A DNA stretch of 23,673 nucleotides, taken from IMG/VR virus record IMGVR_UViG_3300021185_000505, positions 1 through 23,673 of that record; one strand, 5' to 3'. A program made the position numbers and the translations under genes. Shown piece by piece: positions 2,939 through 15,435 of the stretch. The notes under the pieces are model-generated. The model searched no databases. It was not told the DNA's origin and saw nothing but the letters and a program-made list of their open reading frames with translations. The first letter of the stretch is position 1, and each line of letters begins with the position of its first letter. Source of the DNA: a virus.

Positions 2939-3187
2939 ATGGGAAAAAATGAAAAGACCCTAATCACCGTGAACGAAAAAGAGTATTACGTTGAAGATTT
3001 TAATGATCAGCAACGCGTGCTTTTAAACCATGTGAATGATCTAGACCGCAAGTTATCAAGCGCTAGATTTAATGTCGATCAACTCGCAGTAGGCCGTGAG
3101 CGTTTTATTGAATTGCTAGATGAAGCACTTCAGCAAGAAGCAGTCACAGATGCCGACTACGATGAGGTTCCTGATCAGGAGGATTAA
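2939..3187 (+). CDS. Small helical phage protein (DUF6447-like)
   Basis: This encodes 82 residues from ATG with a strong AAGGAG site eight bases upstream. An N-terminal beta segment (TLITVNEKEYYVEDF) is followed by a coiled-coil-like helix (residues about 22-65, with QQRVLLNHVNDLDRKLSSARFNVDQL pattern) and an acidic tail. The layout, a short 'G-KEY-VED' beta part then a helix that pairs, resembles small phage proteins grouped as DUF6447; I am unsure of the match. The stop overlaps the next ATG (TAATG), and its last codons carry an AGGAGG that serves the next gene. Role unknown; a structural or assembly accessory is likely from context. Confidence 0.75.
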   Translation: MGKNEKTLITVNEKEYYVEDFNDQQRVLLNHVNDLDRKLSSARFNVDQLAVGRERFIELLDEALQQEAVTDADYDEVPDQED

Positions 3188-4662
3188 TGCCTCTCATAAC
3201 GCTAGATATCCCGCCAGGGGTTGTAAGGAACGGAACGGACTTAGAGTCTGCCGGTCGATGGAGAGATGCGAGCCTAATCAGATGGCGAAACAACTCTTTA
3301 CGGCCTATTGGCGGCTGGGATACCAGGAAAGCTGCGGCGGCGTCACAACCGCCCCGTGGCGCTGTTACGTGGCTTGATAACTCTGGAAACATTCATTATG
3401 CCTTTGGTACGGCTGACGGTCTATTTACGTCTATTGACTCCAACACGATTATTGATATTACGCCTGCCGGCCTTACTAGCGGAAACGTCAATGCTGTTGA
3501 GAACCTTGGTTATGGCGGTAACTTCTACGGTAAAGAATACTACGGTACGGCCCGTATTGCTGGAGTACCACAGGAGTGCACAACCTGGTCGCTCGACAAC
3601 TGGGGCGAGTATCTAGTTGCGTGTTCTAGTGATGACGGCAAGCTTTACCAATGGCAGTTAAATAACGCAGCCAATGGTGTGCTCGTATCAAACGCGCCTA
3701 CCGGAAATACATCTATCATGGTGACCGAGGAGCGGTTTGTATTCTGCCTTGGTGCCGGCGGCAACCCACGCAAGGTTCAATGGTCTGATCGCGAAGACAT
3801 TGATACATGGACGCCTTCAGCTACTAATGAGGCAGGTGACTTAGAATTACAGACCTCTGGCAAGATTATGCAAGGCGTTCGCATTCGTGGCCGCGCGTTA
3901 ATTATTACGACGACTGATGCTCACGTAGCATCCTACTCAGGGCCGCCCGTGGTCTACGGTTTTGAGCGTGCGGGGACTGCGTGTGGCGGGATTTCTCGGC
4001 AGTCTGCCGTAGCAGTCGATGAGGGCGCGTTCTGGATGGGACAAAAGTCGTTCTTTCTTTATAACGGCTCATCGGTGCAAGAGCTTCCTTGTGACGTTGC
4101 TGATTACGTGTTTGATGATATTAACAACTCGCAAGCATCAAAGGTATGCGCAGTTCATAACTCGCAATACGGAGAGGTGTGGTGGTTTTACCCGTCTCGG
4201 GACTCGCAAGAAAACAACCGCTACGTCTCTTACAACTACCAGCAAAATTATTGGATGATTGGTAACTTAGCTCGTACAGCAGCAGTTGACCGAGGTGTGT
4301 TCCGATACCCAATGTGGTTCGATCCAAGTGCAAATATCTTTGATCACGAGGTGTCTTTATCGCATGACGGTGATGACATCTTTGTAGAGAGTGGTCCGAT
4401 ATTCGTAGGTGAAGGCGAGAACGTGGTACGAGTTACTGAGCTTATCCCTGATGAAAAAACACAGGGCCAAGTTACGGCTACTTTTAAGACAAGGTTTTAT
4501 CCTAACGCCACAGAAAGCTCACACGGGCCATTTACTATGGCAAGCCCTACTAGCGTAAGATTTACCGGTAGACAGCTTCGTATGAGGCTTACAGGCTCTG
4601 ATCTGACTGACTTCCGCGTAGGGAACATGAGGCTGGATGTTAAAACTGGGGGAAGACGGTGA
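3187..4662 (+). CDS. Virion tail-hub protein, P22 gp10-like beta-propeller
   Basis: This encodes 491 residues, close to the 472 of P22 gp10 (packaged DNA stabilisation protein). The N-terminus, PPGVVRNGTDLESAGRWRDA then LRPIGGW, matches a phage structural family in which a 'describe the surface, then propeller' order is used. The middle has repeated short Gly/Trp/Asp-rich blades (for example WGEYLVACSSDDGKLYQW, WSDREDIDTWTP, VYGFERAGTACGGI). The C-terminus GRQLRMRLTGSDLTDFRVGNMRLDV resembles the final strand block of gp10-type proteins. The role would be a tail-tube/hub part closing the head after packaging. There is no signal peptide. ATG 3187 has AGGAGG upstream and overlaps the previous stop. 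Structural role is strong; gp10 equivalence is inferred from pattern and length. Confidence 0.75.
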   Translation: MPLITLDIPPGVVRNGTDLESAGRWRDASLIRWRNNSLRPIGGWDTRKAAAASQPPRGAVTWLDNSGNIHYAFGTADGLFTSIDSNTIIDITPAGLTSGNVNAVENLGYGGNFYGKEYYGTARIAGVPQECTTWSLDNWGEYLVACSSDDGKLYQWQLNNAANGVLVSNAPTGNTSIMVTEERFVFCLGAGGNPRKVQWSDREDIDTWTPSATNEAGDLELQTSGKIMQGVRIRGRALIITTTDAHVASYSGPPVVYGFERAGTACGGISRQSAVAVDEGAFWMGQKSFFLYNGSSVQELPCDVADYVFDDINNSQASKVCAVHNSQYGEVWWFYPSRDSQENNRYVSYNYQQNYWMIGNLARTAAVDRGVFRYPMWFDPSANIFDHEVSLSHDGDDIFVESGPIFVGEGENVVRVTELIPDEKTQGQVTATFKTRFYPNATESSHGPFTMASPTSVRFTGRQLRMRLTGSDLTDFRVGNMRLDVKTGGRR

Positions 4663-5324
4663 GCATAGGGGCATTCCCTCCGCCGCCTGGCGGCCCTGAG
4701 TGGAAGCCTTGGGGTGAGCGCCTTAATGACTACCTAAGACGGGTACGGTCGCAGCTCGCATACTTTGAGACCGGTGATAGTGCAAAAGACGATGGGATTA
4801 TCTTGTGGGACTCCACAGGCTACCCAGTTGTTAGTAGTAACGGTGAGTTTAGGCAAATTGTTTTGGCCGATGGGCATGGTGATTTTTCACTGTCTAGTGA
4901 CTTCACTTATCCGGCATCTAATACTGGTTATGCAATCACTTATGCAGCAGGCTCAGGAAATCAAGGGCTAACACAAAGCGGGTCACGGATAATTTTTGAA
5001 GAAAGTGGTCATTTTTTAATCACATTTACAGCTCAAATTTATTCATCTGCCGCCAGTACTGCAAATTTTGTATTTTGGCCGAAAGTTAATGGCGTAAACG
5101 TAACAAACGGATCGACAATACGAGCAGCGCTACACCAAAACGCATCGACTACCGTTGTAAGCAGGTCTGCCATATTTTATTTAACCGCCAATGACTATCT
5201 TGAAGTGTTTACTGCAACCGATAATCACACGCAAGGAAGCTTGAAAGGCTTTGCTGCAAGCAGCATCGCAACAGAGTCTTTATGTCCATCGACGACACTA
5301 ACGATTATCAGAGTCCAGAGGTGA
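4659..5324 (+). CDS. Virion protein with C-terminal C1q/TNF-like domain
   Basis: This encodes 221 residues from GTG overlapping the preceding stop (GTGA). Residues 1-75 are a Pro-rich start (FPPPPGGPEWKPWGERLNDYLRRV) and a small attachment region. Residues about 85-221 show the jelly-roll pattern common at tips of marine phage spikes: N-GYAITY, QGLTQSGSRIIFEESGHFLI, SSAASTANFVFWPKVNGVNV, then SRSAIFYLTANDYLEVF and a final TTLTIIRV. Such domains trimerise and bind host surface structures or decorate the particle. It sits just after the tail-hub gene, so a short tail spike or hub-attached fibre is likely. Domain call is good; receptor and exact location are not knowable here. Confidence 0.75.
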   Translation: MSIGAFPPPPGGPEWKPWGERLNDYLRRVRSQLAYFETGDSAKDDGIILWDSTGYPVVSSNGEFRQIVLADGHGDFSLSSDFTYPASNTGYAITYAAGSGNQGLTQSGSRIIFEESGHFLITFTAQIYSSAASTANFVFWPKVNGVNVTNGSTIRAALHQNASTTVVSRSAIFYLTANDYLEVFTATDNHTQGSLKGFAASSIATESLCPSTTLTIIRVQR

Positions 5325-5329
5325 TATAA

Positions 5330-5698
5330 TTGGCGACTATAGTAGAAGAATTGGTGCGCTGTGAGCCTTGGTTACAAGCAGCATTAGAAAGATCGGGCGG
5401 CACCCATACTATTACTGACGTCGTTGAAGCTATAGCTGAAGGCCGTATGCAGTTCTGGCCAGCGCCAAAAGGGTGCGCGGTAACGGAGATCATTAAGTAC
5501 CCAGGCAAGAAAGTATTGCACATATTTCTTGCTGGTGGAGAGTTAGAGCAGATCGTAGAGATGGATAGTTCTGCGGCTGAGTTTGCACGAATGAACGGTT
5601 GCACTGCAATGACCATCGCAGGACGCAAAGGCTGGGCTAAGGTGCTGAAGGATAAGGGCTACGAAGTAGCGCACACAGTATTAGCAAAGGAACTTTGA
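5330..5698 (+). CDS. GNAT-like small phage protein (T7 gp13-like class)
   Basis: This encodes 122 residues from TTG, placed five bases after the previous stop, with AGAGGTGAT just upstream. Its alternating strands and helices (WPAPKGCAVTEII, KKVLHIFLAGGELEQI, then FARMNGCTAMTIAGRKGWAKVLKDKGYE) resemble the compact GNAT-fold proteins encoded next to internal virion genes in T7-like and marine podophages, the class represented by T7 gp13. The usual acetyl-CoA loop (Q/RxxGxG/A) is only weakly suggested by GRKGWA, so enzymatic activity is doubtful. The next gene starts two bases after its stop. A role in head maturation or virion assembly is inferred from this class and position. Confidence 0.65.
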   Translation: MATIVEELVRCEPWLQAALERSGGTHTITDVVEAIAEGRMQFWPAPKGCAVTEIIKYPGKKVLHIFLAGGELEQIVEMDSSAAEFARMNGCTAMTIAGRKGWAKVLKDKGYEVAHTVLAKEL

Positions 5699-5699
5699 T

Positions 5700-8600
5700 A
5701 TGTCAGGTGGAAAAGGCGGCAGTCAGACTACACAGGTAGAAATACCTAAGTTTATTGAAGACGCTGCAAGACAGAACTTAGGGCGCGCTCAAGCCACGGC
5801 TCGCATGGGATACCTTCCCTATTATGGGCCAGAGGTTGCGGCTTTTTCTCCTTTGCAAACACAAGCAATGCAAAGCGCAGGTACGGCGGGTCAAGCATTT
5901 GGACTAGCGGGGCCAGGGTTTGATGCTACGGCATCCATACCTACACCTGATTTGTTATACCGCGGTATGCAAGGGTACGGCTCTGGTGAGCTATTCGAGC
6001 AACAACTAAAAGACCTGCAAACAAAAAGCCCCGCGCAATTTAGTCAATACACTTCCTTGCCAACGATGGTTCCAAATTTTGATGGCTACTTCATGCCAGT
6101 GCCGGGACAGGATGCCGGCTATATGCCTGGCACAGATGAAAACGTGGCGTTCGGTACGGATACTCCTTTATTTGATGTGCCATCGCTTGATTTCACTGAC
6201 CCCATGTACGACATCCAGCGCGACCAGTTCTCAATGGGCGGAGATCCAAGCGACCCAACTAGCATTGCGGGCCAAATGGCGGCAATGCAACGGTCAATAG
6301 ACGAGAATCGAGGATTCATTGATCAGGGGAACATCTACAACCCACAGTACGACAATAAATTCCAAGACCTAGAAGCTCAAATATCGGGCTTCCAACAATT
6401 TGACCCCTCTGACTTACAGAACCAATTAACAGCTCTACAAGGGCGAGAGCAATTTGATCCGTCCGGTATGCAGCAAAGACTTGCCGGGCTAGAAGGTCAA
6501 TTTAGTCAATTTCAACCATTCGACCCAAGTGACTTGCAAAACCAGCTTTCTGAATTGCGTGGACGTGAAGCATTTGATCCTACTGACTTAACTGCTCGAC
6601 TTGCTGGGCTTGAGGGGCAAGTTGGTGGCATGACGCCATTTGATCCTACCAACATACAAAACCAATTAGCGGAGCTTCGAGGCAGAGACCCATTTGATCC
6701 CTCTGGCATACAGCAACGCTTGGCGGGGTTAGAGGGTCAAGTCGGGGGAATACAACAATTCGATCCAAGTAACTTACAGCAGCAAATAGCAGAGCTGCGC
6801 GGTGTGGAAAGGTTTAATCCATCCGCCTTACAAAATCAAATTGCAGGCATTGAAGGTCGATTGAGCGGCATGACGCCTTTTGATCCGAGTGGTTTAGCGG
6901 GACAAATTGAAGGCTTGCAGAATCAGTTTGGTGGATTGCAAAATCAATTTGGCAGTATGGAAGGATTCGACCCTAGCGGCTTGCAAAGCCAGATTCAGGG
7001 ATTGCAGAATCAGTTTGGTAACATCGAAAGGTTTGACCCATCCGCATTACAAAACCAAATTTCTGGCATCGAAGGTCGATTGGGAAGCATGACGCCATTT
7101 GACCCCAGCGGCCTAGCGGGTCAACTGGAAGGTTTGCGGGATCAGTTTGGTGGATTACAAAACCAATTCACAGGGATAGAAAGATTTGATCCATCATCAA
7201 TTCAACAGCAAATTGCAGGTATCGAAGGACGGCTAGGGGGCATGACTCCCTTTGACCCAAGTGACATACAAAACCAGTTGTCCGAGCTTCGCGGTCAAGA
7301 TCAGTTCGACCCAACTGCTATTTACGAGCAGCTTGGAGATATAAGGGGCAGAGTAGAAAGTTTCTCACCGTTTGATCCTACTGGTTTGCAACAGCAGATA
7401 TCTGATTTGCGTAATGTAGAAGGATTTGATCCTTCATCTTTGCAAAACCAAATTGCCAACTTGCAAGGCCAGATAGGTGGAATGACGCAGTTTGATCCTT
7501 CAAATCTGCAAGCTCAAATACAAGATTTGCAAGGACGCAGTGCATTTGATCCATCGGGTATCCAGCAAAGAATCGCCGGGCTTGAAGGGCAGTTCAGCCA
7601 ATTCCAGCCTTTTGATCCAAGCGATATCCAAGCTCAACTAAGAGACCTGAGCGGAAGAGATACGTTTGATCCAAGCGCCTTACAGTCTCGCTTATCCGGC
7701 TTGGAAGGCCAGATTGGCGGTATGCAACAGTTTGATCCTAGTGGTTTGCAACAGCAAATTTCGGGCCTACAAAACCAATTCGAAGGAATGACTCCGTTTG
7801 ACGCTTCAGGATTGCAAAATCAAATAGCAGCAAACCAACAGAGGCTGGAAGGAATTAGGGGCTTCGACCCAACTAGCTTACAACAACAAATACAAGGATT
7901 AGAGCAGCAAGTAGGCGGAATAACGCCATTTGATCCTAGCGGCCTTATGGGACAGATAGGTGGTTTGCAAGAGCAAATAGGTTCTTTGCAGACACGTCCT
8001 GGCTTTGATCCAACTGGATTGCAAAACCAGATTTCTGCATTGCAGCAACAACCCGGCTTCGACCCATCGGGCTTGCAGTCACAGATATCCTCTTTGCAAC
8101 AACAGCCTGGCTTTGACGCATCAGGCATTTTAGGCCGGCTCGGAGCATTAGAGTCTACGCCAGGGTTCGATTCGTCTGGACTGCAAAACCAGATAAGCGG
8201 ATTGCAACAACAGTTTTCTGGCCTTCAGCCGTTTGATCCATCGGGCTTACAATCACAAATAAGCTCATTGCAACAAACGCCAGGGTTTGACCCTTCTGGC
8301 TTGCAGTCTCAAATTAACGCGCTTCAGCAGACGCCAGGATTTGATGCGTCAGGATTACAAAACCAGATAAGCGGATTGCAACAACAATTTGCTGGATTCC
8401 AGCCGTTTGATTCATCTGGCTTGCAATCACAGATAAGCTCATTGCAACAAACACCAGGCTTCGATCCTACTGGCCTACAGTCTCAAATCAGCGCACTGCA
8501 ACAAGCTCCGGGCTTTGATGCATCGGGCATATTAGGTCGATTGGGCGCATTAGAAACAGCGCCTGGTTTTGACGCCTCTGGATTTCAATCACGTATTAGC

Positions 8601-8900
8601 GCCCTCGAAACGGCACCAGGTTTTGACGCAAGCGGCCTTCAACAGCAAATTAACGCGCTTCAGCAGACGCCAGGATTCGATCCTACAGGACTCCAACAAC
8701 AAATAGCGGCTAATCAATCAGCCATAGGTCAAGTGCCTCAGTTTGACCCGTCAGGGCTGGCAGGCCAGATAGCAGCTCTACAAAACCAATTAGTAGGATT
8801 GCAGACATCATACAACCCGCAGGTAACAGGTGGTTTTGACCCTGCTGGCGGTCCAATTAACGTGGGCGCTGTACGCGGTCCAATCAAGATAAAAGGTTGA
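5700..8900 (+). CDS. Giant repeat protein, probable virion/ejection protein
   Basis: This encodes 1066 residues from ATG with AAGGA eight bases upstream. Residues 1-75 (MSGGKGG...YLPYYGPEVAAFSPLQTQAM) match the start of a common marine-phage virion protein family. Residues 75-233 are Pro/Asp-rich. Residues 234-1045 are 39 tandem units beginning FD(P/A/S)(S/T), mostly FDPSGLQ-QI--L, with Gln/Leu/Gly-rich helical bodies. They contain no Lys, Cys, Trp or His. Residues 1046-1066 are a GGFDPAGGPINVGA tail that recurs in the next gene. There is no signal peptide or membrane segment. Hydrophobic residues spaced 3/4 suggest a segmented coiled coil. Placed among ejection-type genes upstream of portal, it may form a conduit or ruler inside the virion; an extended external fibre is the alternative. 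Family unproven beyond the N-terminus. Confidence 0.85.
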   Translation: MSGGKGGSQTTQVEIPKFIEDAARQNLGRAQATARMGYLPYYGPEVAAFSPLQTQAMQSAGTAGQAFGLAGPGFDATASIPTPDLLYRGMQGYGSGELFEQQLKDLQTKSPAQFSQYTSLPTMVPNFDGYFMPVPGQDAGYMPGTDENVAFGTDTPLFDVPSLDFTDPMYDIQRDQFSMGGDPSDPTSIAGQMAAMQRSIDENRGFIDQGNIYNPQYDNKFQDLEAQISGFQQFDPSDLQNQLTALQGREQFDPSGMQQRLAGLEGQFSQFQPFDPSDLQNQLSELRGREAFDPTDLTARLAGLEGQVGGMTPFDPTNIQNQLAELRGRDPFDPSGIQQRLAGLEGQVGGIQQFDPSNLQQQIAELRGVERFNPSALQNQIAGIEGRLSGMTPFDPSGLAGQIEGLQNQFGGLQNQFGSMEGFDPSGLQSQIQGLQNQFGNIERFDPSALQNQISGIEGRLGSMTPFDPSGLAGQLEGLRDQFGGLQNQFTGIERFDPSSIQQQIAGIEGRLGGMTPFDPSDIQNQLSELRGQDQFDPTAIYEQLGDIRGRVESFSPFDPTGLQQQISDLRNVEGFDPSSLQNQIANLQGQIGGMTQFDPSNLQAQIQDLQGRSAFDPSGIQQRIAGLEGQFSQFQPFDPSDIQAQLRDLSGRDTFDPSALQSRLSGLEGQIGGMQQFDPSGLQQQISGLQNQFEGMTPFDASGLQNQIAANQQRLEGIRGFDPTSLQQQIQGLEQQVGGITPFDPSGLMGQIGGLQEQIGSLQTRPGFDPTGLQNQISALQQQPGFDPSGLQSQISSLQQQPGFDASGILGRLGALESTPGFDSSGLQNQISGLQQQFSGLQPFDPSGLQSQISSLQQTPGFDPSGLQSQINALQQTPGFDASGLQNQISGLQQQFAGFQPFDSSGLQSQISSLQQTPGFDPTGLQSQISALQQAPGFDASGILGRLGALETAPGFDASGFQSRISALETAPGFDASGLQQQINALQQTPGFDPTGLQQQIAANQSAIGQVPQFDPSGLAGQIAALQNQLVGLQTSYNPQVTGGFDPAGGPINVGAVRGPIKIKG
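6399..8834 (+). repeat. 39-unit tandem protein repeat (54/66-bp periods)
   Basis: By my count there are 18 units of 18 residues, 17 of 22, one of 25, two of 29, and a last one of 31 that runs into the tail, totalling 812 residues. Units 1-8 and 14-21 alternate strictly 18/22. Units 29-31 (8166-8339) and 32-34 (8340-8513) are a 22/18/18 triplet duplicated in tandem (174 bp). Units keep the protein motif but vary their codons: FDPS appears as many different synonymous strings. Confidence 0.9.
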
Positions 8901-8910
8901 GGTAAATAAC

Positions 8911-9885
8911 ATGGCAGGAGCAGGAACAGGATCGCCAATGCAAGGCGGTGGATTTGCAGGCGCTACCGGAGGGTTTAATCCTGCCGGAGGACCAATGAAT
9001 GTAGGCGCACCTGGCACTACTAAAGCACAGGCACCTATAGGCGCTCCCATACAGCCAGTTAAGCCCTTGCCCGGCCAAGTGCCACAGCCAGTCGCCCCTT
9101 CATCTATGGCACCTCCTGCCGCCCCACAGGGTGACATTTTCCAGCAAGCCTCTGCCGGTATCGGTCAAGCAATGGGTGGCGCACAACGAGAGCTAGGGTT
9201 TATGCCGTCGCAGGTTCGGGGCATGGGATACCGCGCTCCTGACATTGCAAGCCAAATACAAGCATTTCAAAACCCGTATGAACAGCAAGTTGTTCAAGGC
9301 GCGATGGGTGATATCGAGCGTCAACGCCAAATGCAGGCCAATCAATTGGCGGCGCAGTTCCAAGGTGCTCGTGCTTTTGGTGGCTCACGAGAAGCCATTC
9401 AGCAAGCAGAGCTAGGGCGTCAAGCACTAGAGCAGGGAGCAAGCACATCGGCGGCGTTAAGGCAGCAAGGCTTTGGTCAGGCTTTACAAGCTGCACAAGC
9501 TCAAGCCGGCATGGGTCAACGCGCTCAAGAGTTTGGTCTTGGCCAAAGTATGCAGGCACAGCTTGCTAACCAAGCGGCACGTCAGGCAGGATCACAACAG
9601 AGATTAGGCGCTGCGGCCCAACTAGGATCGCTTGCTAACTTAGGCTTCGGTATGGGCCAGACAGTACAACAGCAGATGGCCGAGCAGGGAGCATTACAGC
9701 AGCAACTGCAACAGCAGGTCATGAATGCGGCACGTCAGCAGTTTGAAGGCTTCCGTAACTATCCAGCACAAGCGCTTGGTTACTACGCTCAGGCATTGGG
9801 TGCAACACCAACGCCACAGTCTAGTACAACGTCGAAGCAGCCAGGGTTGTTTGATTACCTGACTCTTGGCGCGTCGATGTTCTAA
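8911..9885 (+). CDS. Probable internal virion protein, Gln/Ala-rich
   Basis: This encodes 324 residues from ATG following GAGG at 8898-8904. The first 100 residues are Gly/Pro-rich, include GGFNPAGGPMNVGA (residues 20-33), and look disordered. Residues about 100-300 are a long Gln/Ala helix with the recognisable block FQNPYEQQVVQGAMGDIERQ, then QLAAQFQGARAFGGSREAI. This block typifies marine-phage virion proteins, where it usually follows a GGKGG...YYGP head in the same chain. Here that head is on the preceding gene. Such proteins are annotated as internal or tail structural proteins. It lies 10 bases after the repeat gene and 12 before the next. Structural role likely; exact location in the particle uncertain. 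Confidence 0.75.
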   Translation: MAGAGTGSPMQGGGFAGATGGFNPAGGPMNVGAPGTTKAQAPIGAPIQPVKPLPGQVPQPVAPSSMAPPAAPQGDIFQQASAGIGQAMGGAQRELGFMPSQVRGMGYRAPDIASQIQAFQNPYEQQVVQGAMGDIERQRQMQANQLAAQFQGARAFGGSREAIQQAELGRQALEQGASTSAALRQQGFGQALQAAQAQAGMGQRAQEFGLGQSMQAQLANQAARQAGSQQRLGAAAQLGSLANLGFGMGQTVQQQMAEQGALQQQLQQQVMNAARQQFEGFRNYPAQALGYYAQALGATPTPQSSTTSKQPGLFDYLTLGASMF

Positions 9886-10214: not shown

Positions 10215-11399
10215 ATGTCGGGGATGATGACTGGTCAACCTGTAACACCAAAAGCATCAGCGCGTGATGATGAAGAGCGCAGAATGATGCAAATGATGGA
10301 GCAGATACAACAACGTCGCGCACCAAACGCAAAGGTTGCTATGACGCCTCAAGCTCAACAGCAAATGCAAAACTTTGAGGCCGCTCGCGCACAAGCTATG
10401 CAGCCGGCAAGGTCTGTTAGTGGAGGCTCTACTACTGCCAAACCAGAGCAAGCTGGATTGTTAAGCCGGTTAGGGCGAGGTGCTTTGGATGCGCTGCAAG
10501 ACCCTGTTCAGAATGCGCGAATTGTAACTGCCCTTAACTCTATGCGCTTACAGCCTGATCAAGGCTTGTCTCGGGCCGTACAAGAACGCGCCGCAGGCGT
10601 GCAACAAAGACGTCAGTTGGCCGGACAAGCAAACAGAACGGTAGAGTATTTAAGAAGCCGAGGAAGACCTGATTTGGCTTCAGCTGTTGAAGCAAATCCG
10701 GCGTTAGCACCAGAAGCCTTAAAGGCTGTTATAGGGGTGGCTGGAGACACGTTTGCAACAAAAGGTTTTGCACCACAAGTAGATCCTGCAACTGGGCAAA
10801 TGTATGGCGTCCAATATGACCCTAATACTCAGACATATAAAAGAGTAGATGTCCCAGGAGCGGTTGGAGAAACACCAAGTGAAATTGCCACGAGAGAGCG
10901 TGCAGCAGAGTTAGAAACCGCTGATTTTACGCGCGCAATGAAAGCCGGCCAAGAAGCATTTGTTGCGGCTGAAAGAGCCACTGGAACAATAGACACCTTA
11001 AACAGAGCTTTATCTGCGATAGATAGAGGTGGAGAATCTGGATTTGTAAGGGCTTATCTCCCATCGTTTAACGAAGCAACTACTACTTTGCGACAAGCAG
11101 CAACTGAAATGGGTATCGATTTGATACAAAGCGCAACTTTTGGCGCATTGAGTGAGTCGGAGTTAAAGTTAGCGCTATCGAGTACAATTGATTTAAACCT
11201 ACCAGAGCCGGAACTCAGAAGGCTTTTGAACAACAAGATACGAGTTCAAAGAATTTTGCGTAATGAGTTAATGAAAAAAGCACGAGAGTTAAGCGCAGGT
11301 CGCGTTAAGTACAGCGATCACGTTGAATCTTATAAGATACCTGGCGGCACTGAGCCGATGAACGTGACGCAAGTCTCACCAAGAGATTTAGGCCGATGA
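10215..11399 (+). CDS. Probable internal virion / ejection protein
   Basis: This encodes 394 residues from ATG with AAAGGG upstream. Residues 1-85 are low-complexity, Met/Gln-rich and probably unfolded. Residues 85-215 include the helical segment LLSRLGRGALDALQDPVQNARIVTALNSM. Residues 215-380 are mostly helical and contain the block GIDLIQSATFGALSESELKLAL followed by PEPELRRLLNNKIRVQRIL. This 'FGALSESEL' block recurs near the C-terminus of phage internal or tail-associated proteins. There is no signal peptide. The gene ends in an ATGA overlap with the next large gene. An ejection role is inferred from composition and its position beside the portal. Confidence 0.7.
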   Translation: MSGMMTGQPVTPKASARDDEERRMMQMMEQIQQRRAPNAKVAMTPQAQQQMQNFEAARAQAMQPARSVSGGSTTAKPEQAGLLSRLGRGALDALQDPVQNARIVTALNSMRLQPDQGLSRAVQERAAGVQQRRQLAGQANRTVEYLRSRGRPDLASAVEANPALAPEALKAVIGVAGDTFATKGFAPQVDPATGQMYGVQYDPNTQTYKRVDVPGAVGETPSEIATRERAAELETADFTRAMKAGQEAFVAAERATGTIDTLNRALSAIDRGGESGFVRAYLPSFNEATTTLRQAATEMGIDLIQSATFGALSESELKLALSSTIDLNLPEPELRRLLNNKIRVQRILRNELMKKARELSAGRVKYSDHVESYKIPGGTEPMNVTQVSPRDLGR

Positions 11400-13342
11400 T
11401 TAGGCAGGGTCCGGACGGGAAACCGTATAATTTTCCTGATGACGCGACAGAGCAAGAAATACAAAATTACTTTGCACGCTCAATACCCGTTGCACCACCA
11501 GTTGAAAAACAAAAAGGTCGAGCATTTGCTCAAGGCGTTACTTTTGGGTTTGGGGAAGAGATTGAGGCCGCAGGTAGTGCGGCATTAAGCGCAGTAGGGC
11601 TGTCAGAAGATGATCGCGGGTATAAAGAAATACGTGATGAGCTTCGTGAAAAATTAGAATCTTATAGGGCGGAGTATCCTGGCGAGGCTATTACTGCCGA
11701 GTTGGCAGGGGCTATTATTCCAAGTCTTGTAACATTGGGAGCAGGAGCAGCGCTCAGTGCGGGAACTACAGGGGCGAGAATAGCTCCAACTTTAGCAAGA
11801 ACCACCAAGATTGGTGCTGTCGAAGGTGGATTGGCATCCGCTGGGTTTAGTGAGCGTGAAGGCTTGGAAAGGCTAAAAGACGTACCGGGTGGCGCGGTCA
11901 CTGGTGCGGCATTCAGTGCAGTAACAGCTCCTGCGGGAGATCTTCTTAAACGCTTTGCTTCTCGTACGCTGGGTGAGCGACCAGCAACAATAGTTCAAGC
12001 AGAGTTACAGCGATTAGCTGACGCTACAGGCAAAAATACAGATGAAATTGTAGCCGATCTAATGGAAGGCCGGCTAATGTCTGAGAATCGAACTTTGATG
12101 GCAACCCTTCGCGCATACAAAGCTCAGATGGGAGAGCCTGGAGCGGTGATTACGGAGCGCTTACCGCAGCGCGCTAAACAGACAAAAGAAGAAGCCATGT
12201 CTGGGTTGCAAGCGGGATTAACGCCTCGCATGGGTGATCGCAATGTTATGCGAGCAATGCAGGCCTCAGACGACGAGCTTTTAGACTTAGAGAGGCAAGG
12301 ATATAAAGCTGCATTTGAAACTGTGCCAGAAGTTACGCCAGAAATTTCACGTAATCTAGAAAGCATTCTCCAACGGTTTGGCCCAGCCAGAGTAGAGCTT
12401 CAACAAATTTATGCAGAAAGTGACCGACTTGTACCGCTATTCGCAGAAGATCAGTCTGGGCGCATAGTGCTAAGTAGAATGCCTACACTAGAAGACGCTG
12501 AAATTATCCGTAGAGCTTTACGGGATGAGGCAAGCGGGTTATATCAAGCTGGAAAAGGAACTCGCGCAGAAGGATTTGCTGAAACTGAAAAAGCATTAAA
12601 AGCACAACTCGATACGGCATACCCAGGGCTTGGTGAAATTAGAGCGCTTGCATCTACTCGCCGCATGGTTAGAGATCAATTTGAAGAAGGCCGTAAAGCG
12701 TTAGGAAAAGACGCTGACGAAATAGAAATACTGTTTAGTCGTCTTGTAGATTATTCGCCAGAAGCGGCAGAAGCCTATCGGGCTGGTGTTATGGCGGCAG
12801 TTAATAATCGAATGCGCAGGTCTCCATCGCTTATGGGGCGGCTTGCTGACCCAGATCGTCAAGAAGGCGCAGTGTTGCGCGCAGTATTCCCGGATGAAAG
12901 CATGGAAGAAGTGGCTCGCAAGCTTGATATTGCAGGTGGGGCAAAAGAAGCAGAGCAACAAGTTATATTTGGCAGTCAAACTGCTCCGCAACAAGCGGCT
13001 GCCTCTCAAATTGGCACGCGAACATCGGCAGAAGATATGCTTAGAATGACGCAATTAGACCCAATTGCAATTGCTCAACAAGGGGCAAGATTGATCGCTC
13101 AAGCAACTCCTCAATTAAATGAAAAACAACGCTTACAAGTAGTAAATGTGTTGATGTCAGAAGATCCGGTTCTTGTCCGAAAAGCACTTACTGATCGCGA
13201 TGCCCTTGGTAAACTTTATGATCGAACAGCGCAAATATTAAATGCCGCCGGTTACGCTGGTCGCGGTGCAGCAGTGCAGCAGATCGCTCCTGTAACAGGA
13301 AGTGCGGCAGGCGGGTTGTTTAACTTTGGAGAACAGCAATGA
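11396..13342 (+). CDS. Large internal virion / DNA-ejection protein
   Basis: This encodes 648 residues from ATG overlapping the upstream stop. The N-terminus IRQGPDGKPYNFPDDATEQEIQNYF is a short beta/helix motif often seen at the front of large phage ejection proteins. Residues about 40-60 (GRAFAQGVTFGFGEEIEAAG) and 95-185 (including AELAGAIIPSLVTLGAGAAL) are Gly/Ala-rich, could insert in a membrane, and would fit a protein that crosses the host envelope. The rest is a long helical body. No lytic transglycosylase motif is evident, unlike T7 gp16. It overlaps the portal start by four bases, so the two are translationally coupled. Ejection role is inferred; virion association is likely. Confidence 0.7.
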   Translation: MIRQGPDGKPYNFPDDATEQEIQNYFARSIPVAPPVEKQKGRAFAQGVTFGFGEEIEAAGSAALSAVGLSEDDRGYKEIRDELREKLESYRAEYPGEAITAELAGAIIPSLVTLGAGAALSAGTTGARIAPTLARTTKIGAVEGGLASAGFSEREGLERLKDVPGGAVTGAAFSAVTAPAGDLLKRFASRTLGERPATIVQAELQRLADATGKNTDEIVADLMEGRLMSENRTLMATLRAYKAQMGEPGAVITERLPQRAKQTKEEAMSGLQAGLTPRMGDRNVMRAMQASDDELLDLERQGYKAAFETVPEVTPEISRNLESILQRFGPARVELQQIYAESDRLVPLFAEDQSGRIVLSRMPTLEDAEIIRRALRDEASGLYQAGKGTRAEGFAETEKALKAQLDTAYPGLGEIRALASTRRMVRDQFEEGRKALGKDADEIEILFSRLVDYSPEAAEAYRAGVMAAVNNRMRRSPSLMGRLADPDRQEGAVLRAVFPDESMEEVARKLDIAGGAKEAEQQVIFGSQTAPQQAAASQIGTRTSAEDMLRMTQLDPIAIAQQGARLIAQATPQLNEKQRLQVVNVLMSEDPVLVRKALTDRDALGKLYDRTAQILNAAGYAGRGAAVQQIAPVTGSAAGGLFNFGEQQ

Positions 13343-15435
13343 GTTTAAAACCAATGACAGAGCAGGACATTGAGGGCATTGCACGCGAGGCAATACAAGA
13401 CGCCGTTGATTTCTGTGAATCTGAGATTGCTGAAGACCGAATAAAGGCACAGCGTTACTTTGATGGTGAAACCGATATCGGTGAAGAAGATGGCCGGTCT
13501 AAGGTCGTTTCTACAAAGGTACGGGATACCGTACGGGCTATTAAGCCGTCTTTGATGCGCGTATTTCTGTCTACTGACAAGCCGGTAGAGTTTGTGCCAC
13601 GTAACCAAGAAGACGTACAGATGGCTGAACAGGCCACTAAGTATATGCACTATCAGTTCAATGAGCTAAACGGCTATAGGGTGCTTAACGATGCAATACA
13701 CGATGCGCTCATTAAAAAGGTCGGTGTCGTCAAGGTTTACTGGGATACTTACCAAGAGCAAGAAATATACGATTTCCAAGATCTTAACGACATGGAGTTT
13801 TCTGTGCTCGTTAATGAAGACGACGTTGAGGTATTGGAGCACACAACTCAAATGGTCATGGAAATGGACCAAATGGGTATGGAGATGGAAGCTCCGCGCC
13901 ATGACCTCAAGATCGCTCGCACGGTCGAGAAAGGCAAGATGTGCGTTGAAAGCGTACCTCCAGAAGAATTTTTCATTGATCGTAACTCGCGCTCTATCGA
14001 TGACTATTACGTTGTTGCTCATCGTACAGAGATGCGTGTGGGCGATCTGGTGGCTATGGGTTACGATTACGAAGAAGTCTACGATTTAGGCGGCCTACAA
14101 CACTCTGATACGTTCTCTGAGGTTGAGGAATACCAGCGTAGGGGGTACGAAGAAGATTATTCTGACGAGGACGTACAAGACCCCTCAATGCGTTTAGTAG
14201 CCGTCACAGAGGCATACATGAAGATTGACGTAAACGGCACTGGGGTAGCGCAGTTACACAAGGTCACATTAGGCGGCAATCAGTATAAGTTATTGGACTA
14301 TGAGCCATGCGGTCAAATTCCGTTTGCTGTATTTGAGGTAGACCCTGAGCCACACACATTCTATGGCCGGTCGGTAGCGGACCTTATCTTGAATGACCAA
14401 GACGCGGCTACAGCCATGCTTCGCGGTGTACTGGATAACGTCGCACTGACTAACAACCCTCGCGTAGAGATTGTAGACGGCGCAGTAAACGTCGATGACC
14501 TATTAAACAATGAGATTGGCGGAATCATCCGCGTTAAGCAGTCAGGCGCTATTCAGCCACAGGCTGTCCCGTTCGTCGCAGGTCAGACCCTTTCTGCCTT
14601 ACAATATTTTGATCAACAGGTAGAAGATAAGACTGGGGTTACAAAAGCGTCTACTGGCTTGTCACCTGATGCACTGCAAAGCACAACGGCTACTGCTGTC
14701 GCGGCGACTATGCAGGCTCAGGCGGCGCAGATTGAAGTGATGGCTCGGAACCTTGCTGAAGGCGGTATGCGTCAGATGTTTAGGCTGATGTTGAAGGTCA
14801 TGGTAGAAAACGTCGATGAAGAGCAGATGATGCGGTTACAGGGCCAAAGCTACATTCCTGTCGATCCTCGCTCATGGAATACCGGCATGGACGTATCCAT
14901 TAACGTAGGTCTTGGAACGGGCAGAGAAGACCAGAAGGTCGCTGTCCTTAACCAGGCGTTACAGATGCAGATTCAAATTTTCCAGTCGTATGGCCCTGGC
15001 AATGGCATGGTTTCACTGTCAAACATAAGAAACACTTTGTCGGACATATTGGCTATCAATGGCGTCCGCAACTCTGAGCGCTACTTTATGCCTCTCAATC
15101 CGGCTATGGAACAGCAGATGATGATGCAACAGCAGCAACAGGGTCAGCAGCAACAAGGAGATCCTAATGCGGCTTACTTGCAGGCAGAGCAAATGAAGGC
15201 CCAAGCTAAGATGCAGTCAGACCAAATGAAGGTTATGGCTAAGTCTCAATTAGATCAGCAGAAGATGATGCTGGATGCACAGCAGGCTATGGCCAATGAT
15301 GACTTAAAACGCGATGAGCTAGATCAAAATCTATTGATTAGCGCGGCAGAAATTATTGGAAAGTACGGCACAGCCGTAGATGTAGAACGAATTAAACAGC
15401 TACAAAACGCACCTAGAAACCCTATGGGTATGTGA
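13339..15435 (+). CDS. Portal protein, P22-like family
   Basis: This encodes 698 residues, near the 725 of P22 gp1. The start (EQDIEGIAREAIQDAVDFCESEIAEDRIKAQRYFDGE) and the block SKVVSTKVRDTVRAIKPSLMRVF are characteristic of this portal group. DGR-KVVST and later YGRSVADLILNDQDAATAMLRG also fit. The C-terminus has a Met/Gln-rich segment (about residues 590-660, including a Q/M run) that would form the barrel helix pointing into the head. Twelve copies form the ring through which DNA is pumped and later ejected, at one capsid vertex. It starts ATG in an ATGA overlap with the ejection gene and is followed by a linker gene and the scaffold. A terminase is expected but lies outside the window. 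Confidence 0.9.
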   Translation: MSLKPMTEQDIEGIAREAIQDAVDFCESEIAEDRIKAQRYFDGETDIGEEDGRSKVVSTKVRDTVRAIKPSLMRVFLSTDKPVEFVPRNQEDVQMAEQATKYMHYQFNELNGYRVLNDAIHDALIKKVGVVKVYWDTYQEQEIYDFQDLNDMEFSVLVNEDDVEVLEHTTQMVMEMDQMGMEMEAPRHDLKIARTVEKGKMCVESVPPEEFFIDRNSRSIDDYYVVAHRTEMRVGDLVAMGYDYEEVYDLGGLQHSDTFSEVEEYQRRGYEEDYSDEDVQDPSMRLVAVTEAYMKIDVNGTGVAQLHKVTLGGNQYKLLDYEPCGQIPFAVFEVDPEPHTFYGRSVADLILNDQDAATAMLRGVLDNVALTNNPRVEIVDGAVNVDDLLNNEIGGIIRVKQSGAIQPQAVPFVAGQTLSALQYFDQQVEDKTGVTKASTGLSPDALQSTTATAVAATMQAQAAQIEVMARNLAEGGMRQMFRLMLKVMVENVDEEQMMRLQGQSYIPVDPRSWNTGMDVSINVGLGTGREDQKVAVLNQALQMQIQIFQSYGPGNGMVSLSNIRNTLSDILAINGVRNSERYFMPLNPAMEQQMMMQQQQQGQQQQGDPNAAYLQAEQMKAQAKMQSDQMKVMAKSQLDQQKMMLDAQQAMANDDLKRDELDQNLLISAAEIIGKYGTAVDVERIKQLQNAPRNPMGM

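Follow-up and report, generated by a model that had tools for sequence, protein, structure and literature searches.

Positions 1 to 23,673 of the IMG/VR virus record IMGVR_UViG_3300021185_000505 (23,673 nucleotides, hereafter the window) contain an open reading frame (ORF) in which a conserved N-terminal domain is followed at some distance by a chain of 39 short repeat units, the array. Since both this N-terminal domain and the domain encoded by the adjacent gene occur in members of the phrog_4287 family of ejection proteins, with gp27 of phage phiM5 having both in one chain, we conclude from homology that one ejection protein has probably been split into the genes starting at 5700 and 8911. 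The following features were assigned to this gene pair.

5700-8900, plus strand: whole ORF, 1066 residues, with N-terminal domain, variable linker, 39-unit array and short tail.
5700-6059, plus strand: conserved N-terminal domain (N-domain, about residues 1-120), corresponding to the N-terminal part of the phrog_4287 family by alignment and profile match.
6060-6398, plus strand: linker differing among subclades, with a degenerate repeat-like stretch at its end (NPQYDNKFQDLEAQISGFQQ), from alignment and sequence reading.
6399-8834, plus strand: array of 39 capped-helix units (F-D-P/A/S-S/T-x-L-x3-I/L-x2-L...) with lengths of 18, 22, 25 and 29 residues.
6399-6878, plus strand: block 1, eight units alternating between 18 and 22 residues.
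7251-7730, plus strand: block 2, eight units alternating between 18 and 22 residues.
8166-8513, plus strand: 22/18/18 triplet, duplicated (8166-8339 and 8340-8513), with a period of 174 bp in Tandem Repeats Finder (86% matched).
8829-8870, plus strand: C-terminal tail motif GGFDPAGGPINVGA, recurring near the start of the next gene.
8911-9885, plus strand: putative second half of the split ejection protein (NPY...AFGGSR domain), from matches to DB2 gp18 and phiM5 gp27, with the shared motif GGFNPAGGPMNVGA at 8968-9009.

The N-domain of about 120 residues recurs in 320 viral contigs. Among the best 80 of these 320 relatives most are short complete proteins, mostly of 115-330 residues, without the array. 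Against phrog_4287 the N-domain of the window gave an E-value of 5e-4 and those of two relatives, L031 and L024, gave 7e-6 to 9e-6, while a direct comparison of the window N-domain with the N-terminus of phiM5 gp27 yielded 1e-8 in BLAST and 96% in HHalign. The NPY...AFGGSR domain sits in the adjacent gene at 8911-9885 and not in the array ORF; this gene matched gp18 of Octadecabacter virus DB2 (4e-30) and phiM5 gp27 (3e-11). phiM5 gp27 is itself a phrog_4287 member (6.5e-91), a single protein holding both the N- and the C-terminal part, and by its annotation was detected in the particle proteome. DB2 gp18 aligns to positions 87-387 of the phrog_4287 profile, and gp21 and gp22 of SU10, both demonstrated ejection proteins, are strong members of the family. 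In SU10, gp20-24 are present in virions and gone from the genome-release intermediate (PMC9509320). A survey of this lineage puts candidate ejectosome genes after the tail-tube gene (PMC10386132), and in the window the ejection genes likewise follow the nozzle/tail-tube gene and lie among internal virion proteins. The genes DB2 gp16-gp19 are collinear with those starting at 5330, 5700, 8911 and 10215 of the window, and DB2 gp17 shares both the N-domain and the gene order, without an array. When compared to the phrog_4287 ejection proteins SU10 gp21/gp22 and phiM5 gp27, the window proteins are alike in that the N-domain corresponds to the N-terminal part and the next gene to the C-terminal part, as well as in following the nozzle gene close to internal virion proteins, whereas the window version is split into two genes and has the 39-unit array at the seam. 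phiM5 gp27 further differs from the window in having an S74 domain and no array. Homology of the N-domain to the P22 pilot protein gp7 was not found (HHalign probability 0.3%), and neither the N-domain nor the ejection halves matched any solved structure.

A motif of the form GGF[DN]PAGGP[IM]NVGA occurs both at the end of the array protein (8829-8870) and near the start of the next gene (8968-9009), and does so likewise in the close relatives L009-L012. The seam may have been duplicated; the motif is possibly a relic of the split or a common docking motif.

The borders of the array units were set by splitting the translation of ORF 5700-8900 at F[DN][PAS][ST]. This parse gave 18 units of 18 residues, 17 of 22, one of 25 and two of 29; the final unit begins at nt 8742 and has 31 residues if cut at 8834. 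The original prediction, which had described 39 units of these lengths at 6399-8834, two blocks of eight alternating 18/22 units, a duplicated 22/18/18 triplet and an array free of Lys, Cys, Trp and His, was thereby reproduced, the composition over all 812 residues. Its statement that each unit opens with FDPS or FDPT holds for 30 of the 39; the others start with FDAS (six), FDSS (two) or FNPS (one). No exact repeat of 35 bp or more was found, so that an assembly artefact is improbable as the source of the unit count and was discarded.

The sequence FDP[ST]xL follows the textbook pattern of an N-cap closed by a hydrophobic staple, in which F is N', D the N-cap, P N1 and L N4, and the assignment of the unit opening to a helix-capping turn is supported. 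A hydrophobic core is found at unit positions 1, 6, 10 and 13 across all unit lengths, with additional core positions at 17 and 20 in the units of 22, 25 and 29 residues and at 24 and 27 in those of 29. Positions 1, 6 and 10 are hydrophobic in all units and position 13 in 36 of 38, the intervening positions almost never; this pattern is far beyond chance. The gap between the final core residue of a unit and the initial one of its successor is 11 (18- and 25-residue units) or 8 (22- and 29-residue units) in 38/38 cases. Helices therefore lengthen by whole heptads, and in the window the unit length is a number of whole heptads plus one of two junction types.

The prediction had read the unit lengths as sums of 7 and 11 that preserve coiled-coil phase. 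Such sums cover six of the twelve lengths from 18 to 29, and the probability that all four distinct lengths fit is about 0.03; taken on its own this arithmetic is weak, and the units are also related by descent. Lengths of 18, 22, 25 or 29 are kept by 108/114 distinct units in the window clade and 129/133 in the L016-L022 group, within each of which the units are related by descent; in other array phages only 54/67 and 47/78 distinct units are sums of 7 and 11. In the relatives 20-residue units with a gap of 13 are common (30 distinct ones; present in L016, L017 and L019), as are 24-residue units with a gap of 17 and proline-rich linkers such as NVQPVAPTPA. Moreover, a 27-residue unit occurs in L013 and one of 48 residues in L010. 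Because wider relatives use the gaps 13 and 17, coiled-coil phase is not kept, and we abandoned heptad/hendecad phase as the design rule: relatives that break the 7/11 series, named in advance as grounds for giving it up, exist, and in one group only the said 47 of 78 units comply. The conserved principle is the short N-capped helix and not the phase.

Comparison with close relatives showed that the length of the array varies, as had been expected. The window has 39 units, L010 34, L012 30, and L009 and L011 26 each; window and L009 are 93-98% identical in DNA where aligned, yet have 39 and 26 units, respectively, a difference between phages of about 94% identity. In orthologous array blocks dN/dS, the ratio of nonsynonymous to synonymous change, was 0.03-0.04 for the window against L010 and L012. 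Pairs of units within the window differed at a proportion of 0.82 of synonymous sites (pS, saturated) and 0.36 of nonsynonymous sites (pN). The units are old and constrained at the protein level, and their number is labile. That repeat recombination produced the array as a neutral by-product without function, for which the rapid change in copy number and the related DB2 protein without array might speak, is highly improbable, since it is disfavoured by this selection test and by core positions that remain nearly invariant across units saturated at synonymous sites.

AlphaFold2 (AF2) predicted one helix per unit, starting just after FDP and breaking before the next FDP, with low confidence. One continuous coil through the array is unlikely on the basis of these models, because the helix restarts at each FDP. 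The predicted local distance difference test (pLDDT) was 39 both for a 160-residue stretch and for the whole protein, from shallow alignments and single chains only, and AF2 can therefore not decide between an oligomer and a solenoid. The models contained no solenoid, the outcome that would have spoken against a coil, but no confident single-chain fold either. The narrow hydrophobic stripe of the units argues against an alpha-solenoid. A Foldseek search with the full-length model, itself of low confidence, gave no match at E<1.

The array as query matched 57 viral contigs, in which at least five protein architectures could be distinguished by our own reading. No array was found in the bacterial genomes or in the named phages searched, and all array-bearing genomes found are uncultured. 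The earlier claim that no protein of this design had been described holds for these two sets, but the 57 contigs do match the array. In L107-L133 the array lies N-terminal to an ejection-type domain in one chain. The motif [AG]FGGS[RQ] is present in the same chain in 16 array ORFs, and 0.4-1.1 kb downstream of the array in the window clade. A home-made hidden Markov model (HMM) of the ejection domain matched C-terminal of the array in 11 of these array proteins, from L109-L133 (E 2e-7 to 3e-10; none among reversed decoys), several of the L107-L133 contigs being near-duplicates. In L118 the array gene is situated between the nozzle and phrog_4287 genes. FDPS units are intermixed with DLSGYATT-type units in L077, and in L122, L130 and L131 one protein combines them with GGYGG-rich and collagen-like (GAT)n tracts. 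In L130 the array gene is flanked by portal and capsid genes, one on either side, and in L095 it adjoins scaffold and capsid genes. At L025:3031-4616 the N-domain ORF ends after 133 residues and the array goes on in another frame, through a frameshift or a sequencing error.

Several profile matches of the array were set aside. Those in Pfam (Phage_scaffold 7e-18, HemX, Wbp11, HMMR_C) were treated as coil composition because no single stretch passes on its own. The matches to fibritin (phrog_1056, 5e-13; phmmer against PDB, 0.0015) probably reflect composition and are not supported by the array profile, which finds no fibritin. The P68 'inner core protein | tail fibre protein' (6iac) was matched at E=0.022 over about one unit only.

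Around the gene pair, the window encodes SU10-type portal and capsid proteins (Pfam) and the following genes.

3187-4662, plus strand: nozzle/tail-tube homologue marking the module (phrog_3287; PDB 'nozzle gp16', 3e-8).
4659-5324, plus strand: gene in tail-needle position directly 3' of the nozzle gene, assigned as needle by position and appearance only.
5330-5698: small acetyltransferase-like gene.
10215-11399, plus strand: ejection-cluster neighbour, partly homologous to DB2 gp19 (Hydrolase_2 protein).
11396-13342, plus strand: ejection-cluster neighbour, phrog_5880 (function unknown).
13339-15435, plus strand: SU10-type portal protein (Pfam SU10_portal, 2.5e-200).

In the window, in DB2 (gp16) and, by annotation and position, in MW202879, the acetyltransferase-like gene separates the nozzle gene from the ejection genes. 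The C-terminal part of the needle-position gene (4886-5292) could not be aligned with close relatives and is flanked by sequence of about 85-93% identity, possibly as a result of tip-domain swapping. The two ejection-cluster genes at 10217-13338 were unalignable with L009 at the DNA level, between flanks of 94-96% identity; this mosaic stretch adjoins the array gene.

On balance we favour the reading in which an SU10/LUZ24-like podophage has its ejection (pilot) protein split in two and the ORF encodes the first half, with a C-terminal chain of 39 helices and the gene for the second half beside it, the protein being ejected, threading the channel and forming a segmented sheath or tether. It would be packaged in the head and leave with the other ejection proteins; as a chain of roughly 10- to 23-residue helices without a tertiary core it could thread the narrow portal and tail channel bead by bead. 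Once outside, each helix would use its one-sided hydrophobic stripe to pair with its counterpart in adjacent copies or with a different ejection protein. Along the trans-envelope channel this pairing would build a segmented sheath or tether of coiled coils, the reach of which would alter with unit number. The T7 ejectosome of gp14, gp15 and gp16 serves as a working analogy only, and we know of no repeat chain of this kind in the T7 ejection proteins. Those are helical and, once ejected, assemble into a channel across the envelope (PMC8954989).

Several observations weigh against this reading. The gene at 8911 has no direct match in PHROGs, the match of the window N-domain to phrog_4287 is weak, and the ejection-domain HMM does not match SU10 gp21 or gp22. 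Most N-domain relatives do without an array, which is hence not needed for ejection as such, and no ejection domain was found in the array proteins near portal, scaffold or capsid genes (L095, L130). At their ends the homologues phiM5 gp27 (by annotation) and DB2 gp18 carry an S74 chaperone domain, as is usual for trimeric tail fibres and spikes. Finally, the 812 residues as one unbroken helix would measure about 122 nm, far longer than the periplasm; a straight rod across it is therefore unlikely, and slack, zigzag or partial use must be assumed. Of the virion rod or ejection conduit first proposed, the virion protein and its link to the ejection apparatus stand (phrog_4287 homology, SU10 gp21/gp22), whereas a full-length straight rod is doubtful, and the conduit role, like threading, packing and length-setting, is what we infer from a link to ejection that homology supports.

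The main rival, somewhat unlikely in our estimate, has the tail display an external trimeric fibre or spike with the array as its stalk, three parallel strands forming a segmented coiled coil in the manner of T4 fibritin or of an alpha/beta coiled coil. The S74 domains just mentioned favour it, although a Pfam search found none in the window gene pair. With T4 fibritin and other segmented trimeric coiled coils, compared by sequence, the array has in common short coiled-coil-like helices parted by loops, and the weak fibritin matches point the same way; these look like coil composition, however, the array profile detects no homology, and the units are near-periodic and more numerous. The DLSGYATT-type units that co-occur in L077 are similar to MATKDD, the beta-layer motif found in trimeric alpha/beta coiled coils (PMC4786415), with which the array shares a repeated N-cap residue and a core residue four positions later. 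Its gaps of 8 and 11 in the window, in contrast, do not, from sequence, correspond to the 2- or 6-residue insertions of beta-layers, as the gap of 13 in relatives would. The combination of array units and a collagen-like (GAT)n tract in one L130 protein would also suit a fibre, whereas a stalk fits poorly with two halves that match an ejection family whose SU10 members exit the particle on DNA release (PMC9509320).

Quite improbable, in our view, is a flexible, mostly solvent-exposed spacer of the head or neck, akin to scaffold, tape or DNA-packing proteins and lying outside the ejection channel. The gene positions in L095 and L130, helices without a fold in AF2 and the labile unit number are consistent with it, whereas the strict hydrophobic stripe implies helix-helix packing and the array is in or beside an ejection domain in the window clade and in L107-L133.

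Returning to the split ejection protein, a broader and more tentative version would be a modular ejectable helix chain, in which capped-helix units are recombined to lengthen or shorten a trans-envelope channel or tether. Unit number might then act as a ruler that can evolve to suit the envelope or capsule of the host, and separate groups of phages would have joined the unit to one or the other side of the seam at the ejection domain.

Few parts of short-tailed phages are as poorly understood as their ejection proteins. A module multiplied about 17- to 39-fold, conserved in its unit and variable in number between near-identical phages, would offer a natural length series for the span of a DNA-delivery channel. 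It also suggests a function for arrays in uncultured phages that so far have no assigned role or were likened to scaffold or fibre families through their composition. The array design is common to many uncultured phages, and in the marine short-tailed phage studied here it may be a length-variable tether or sleeve for DNA crossing the cell envelope.
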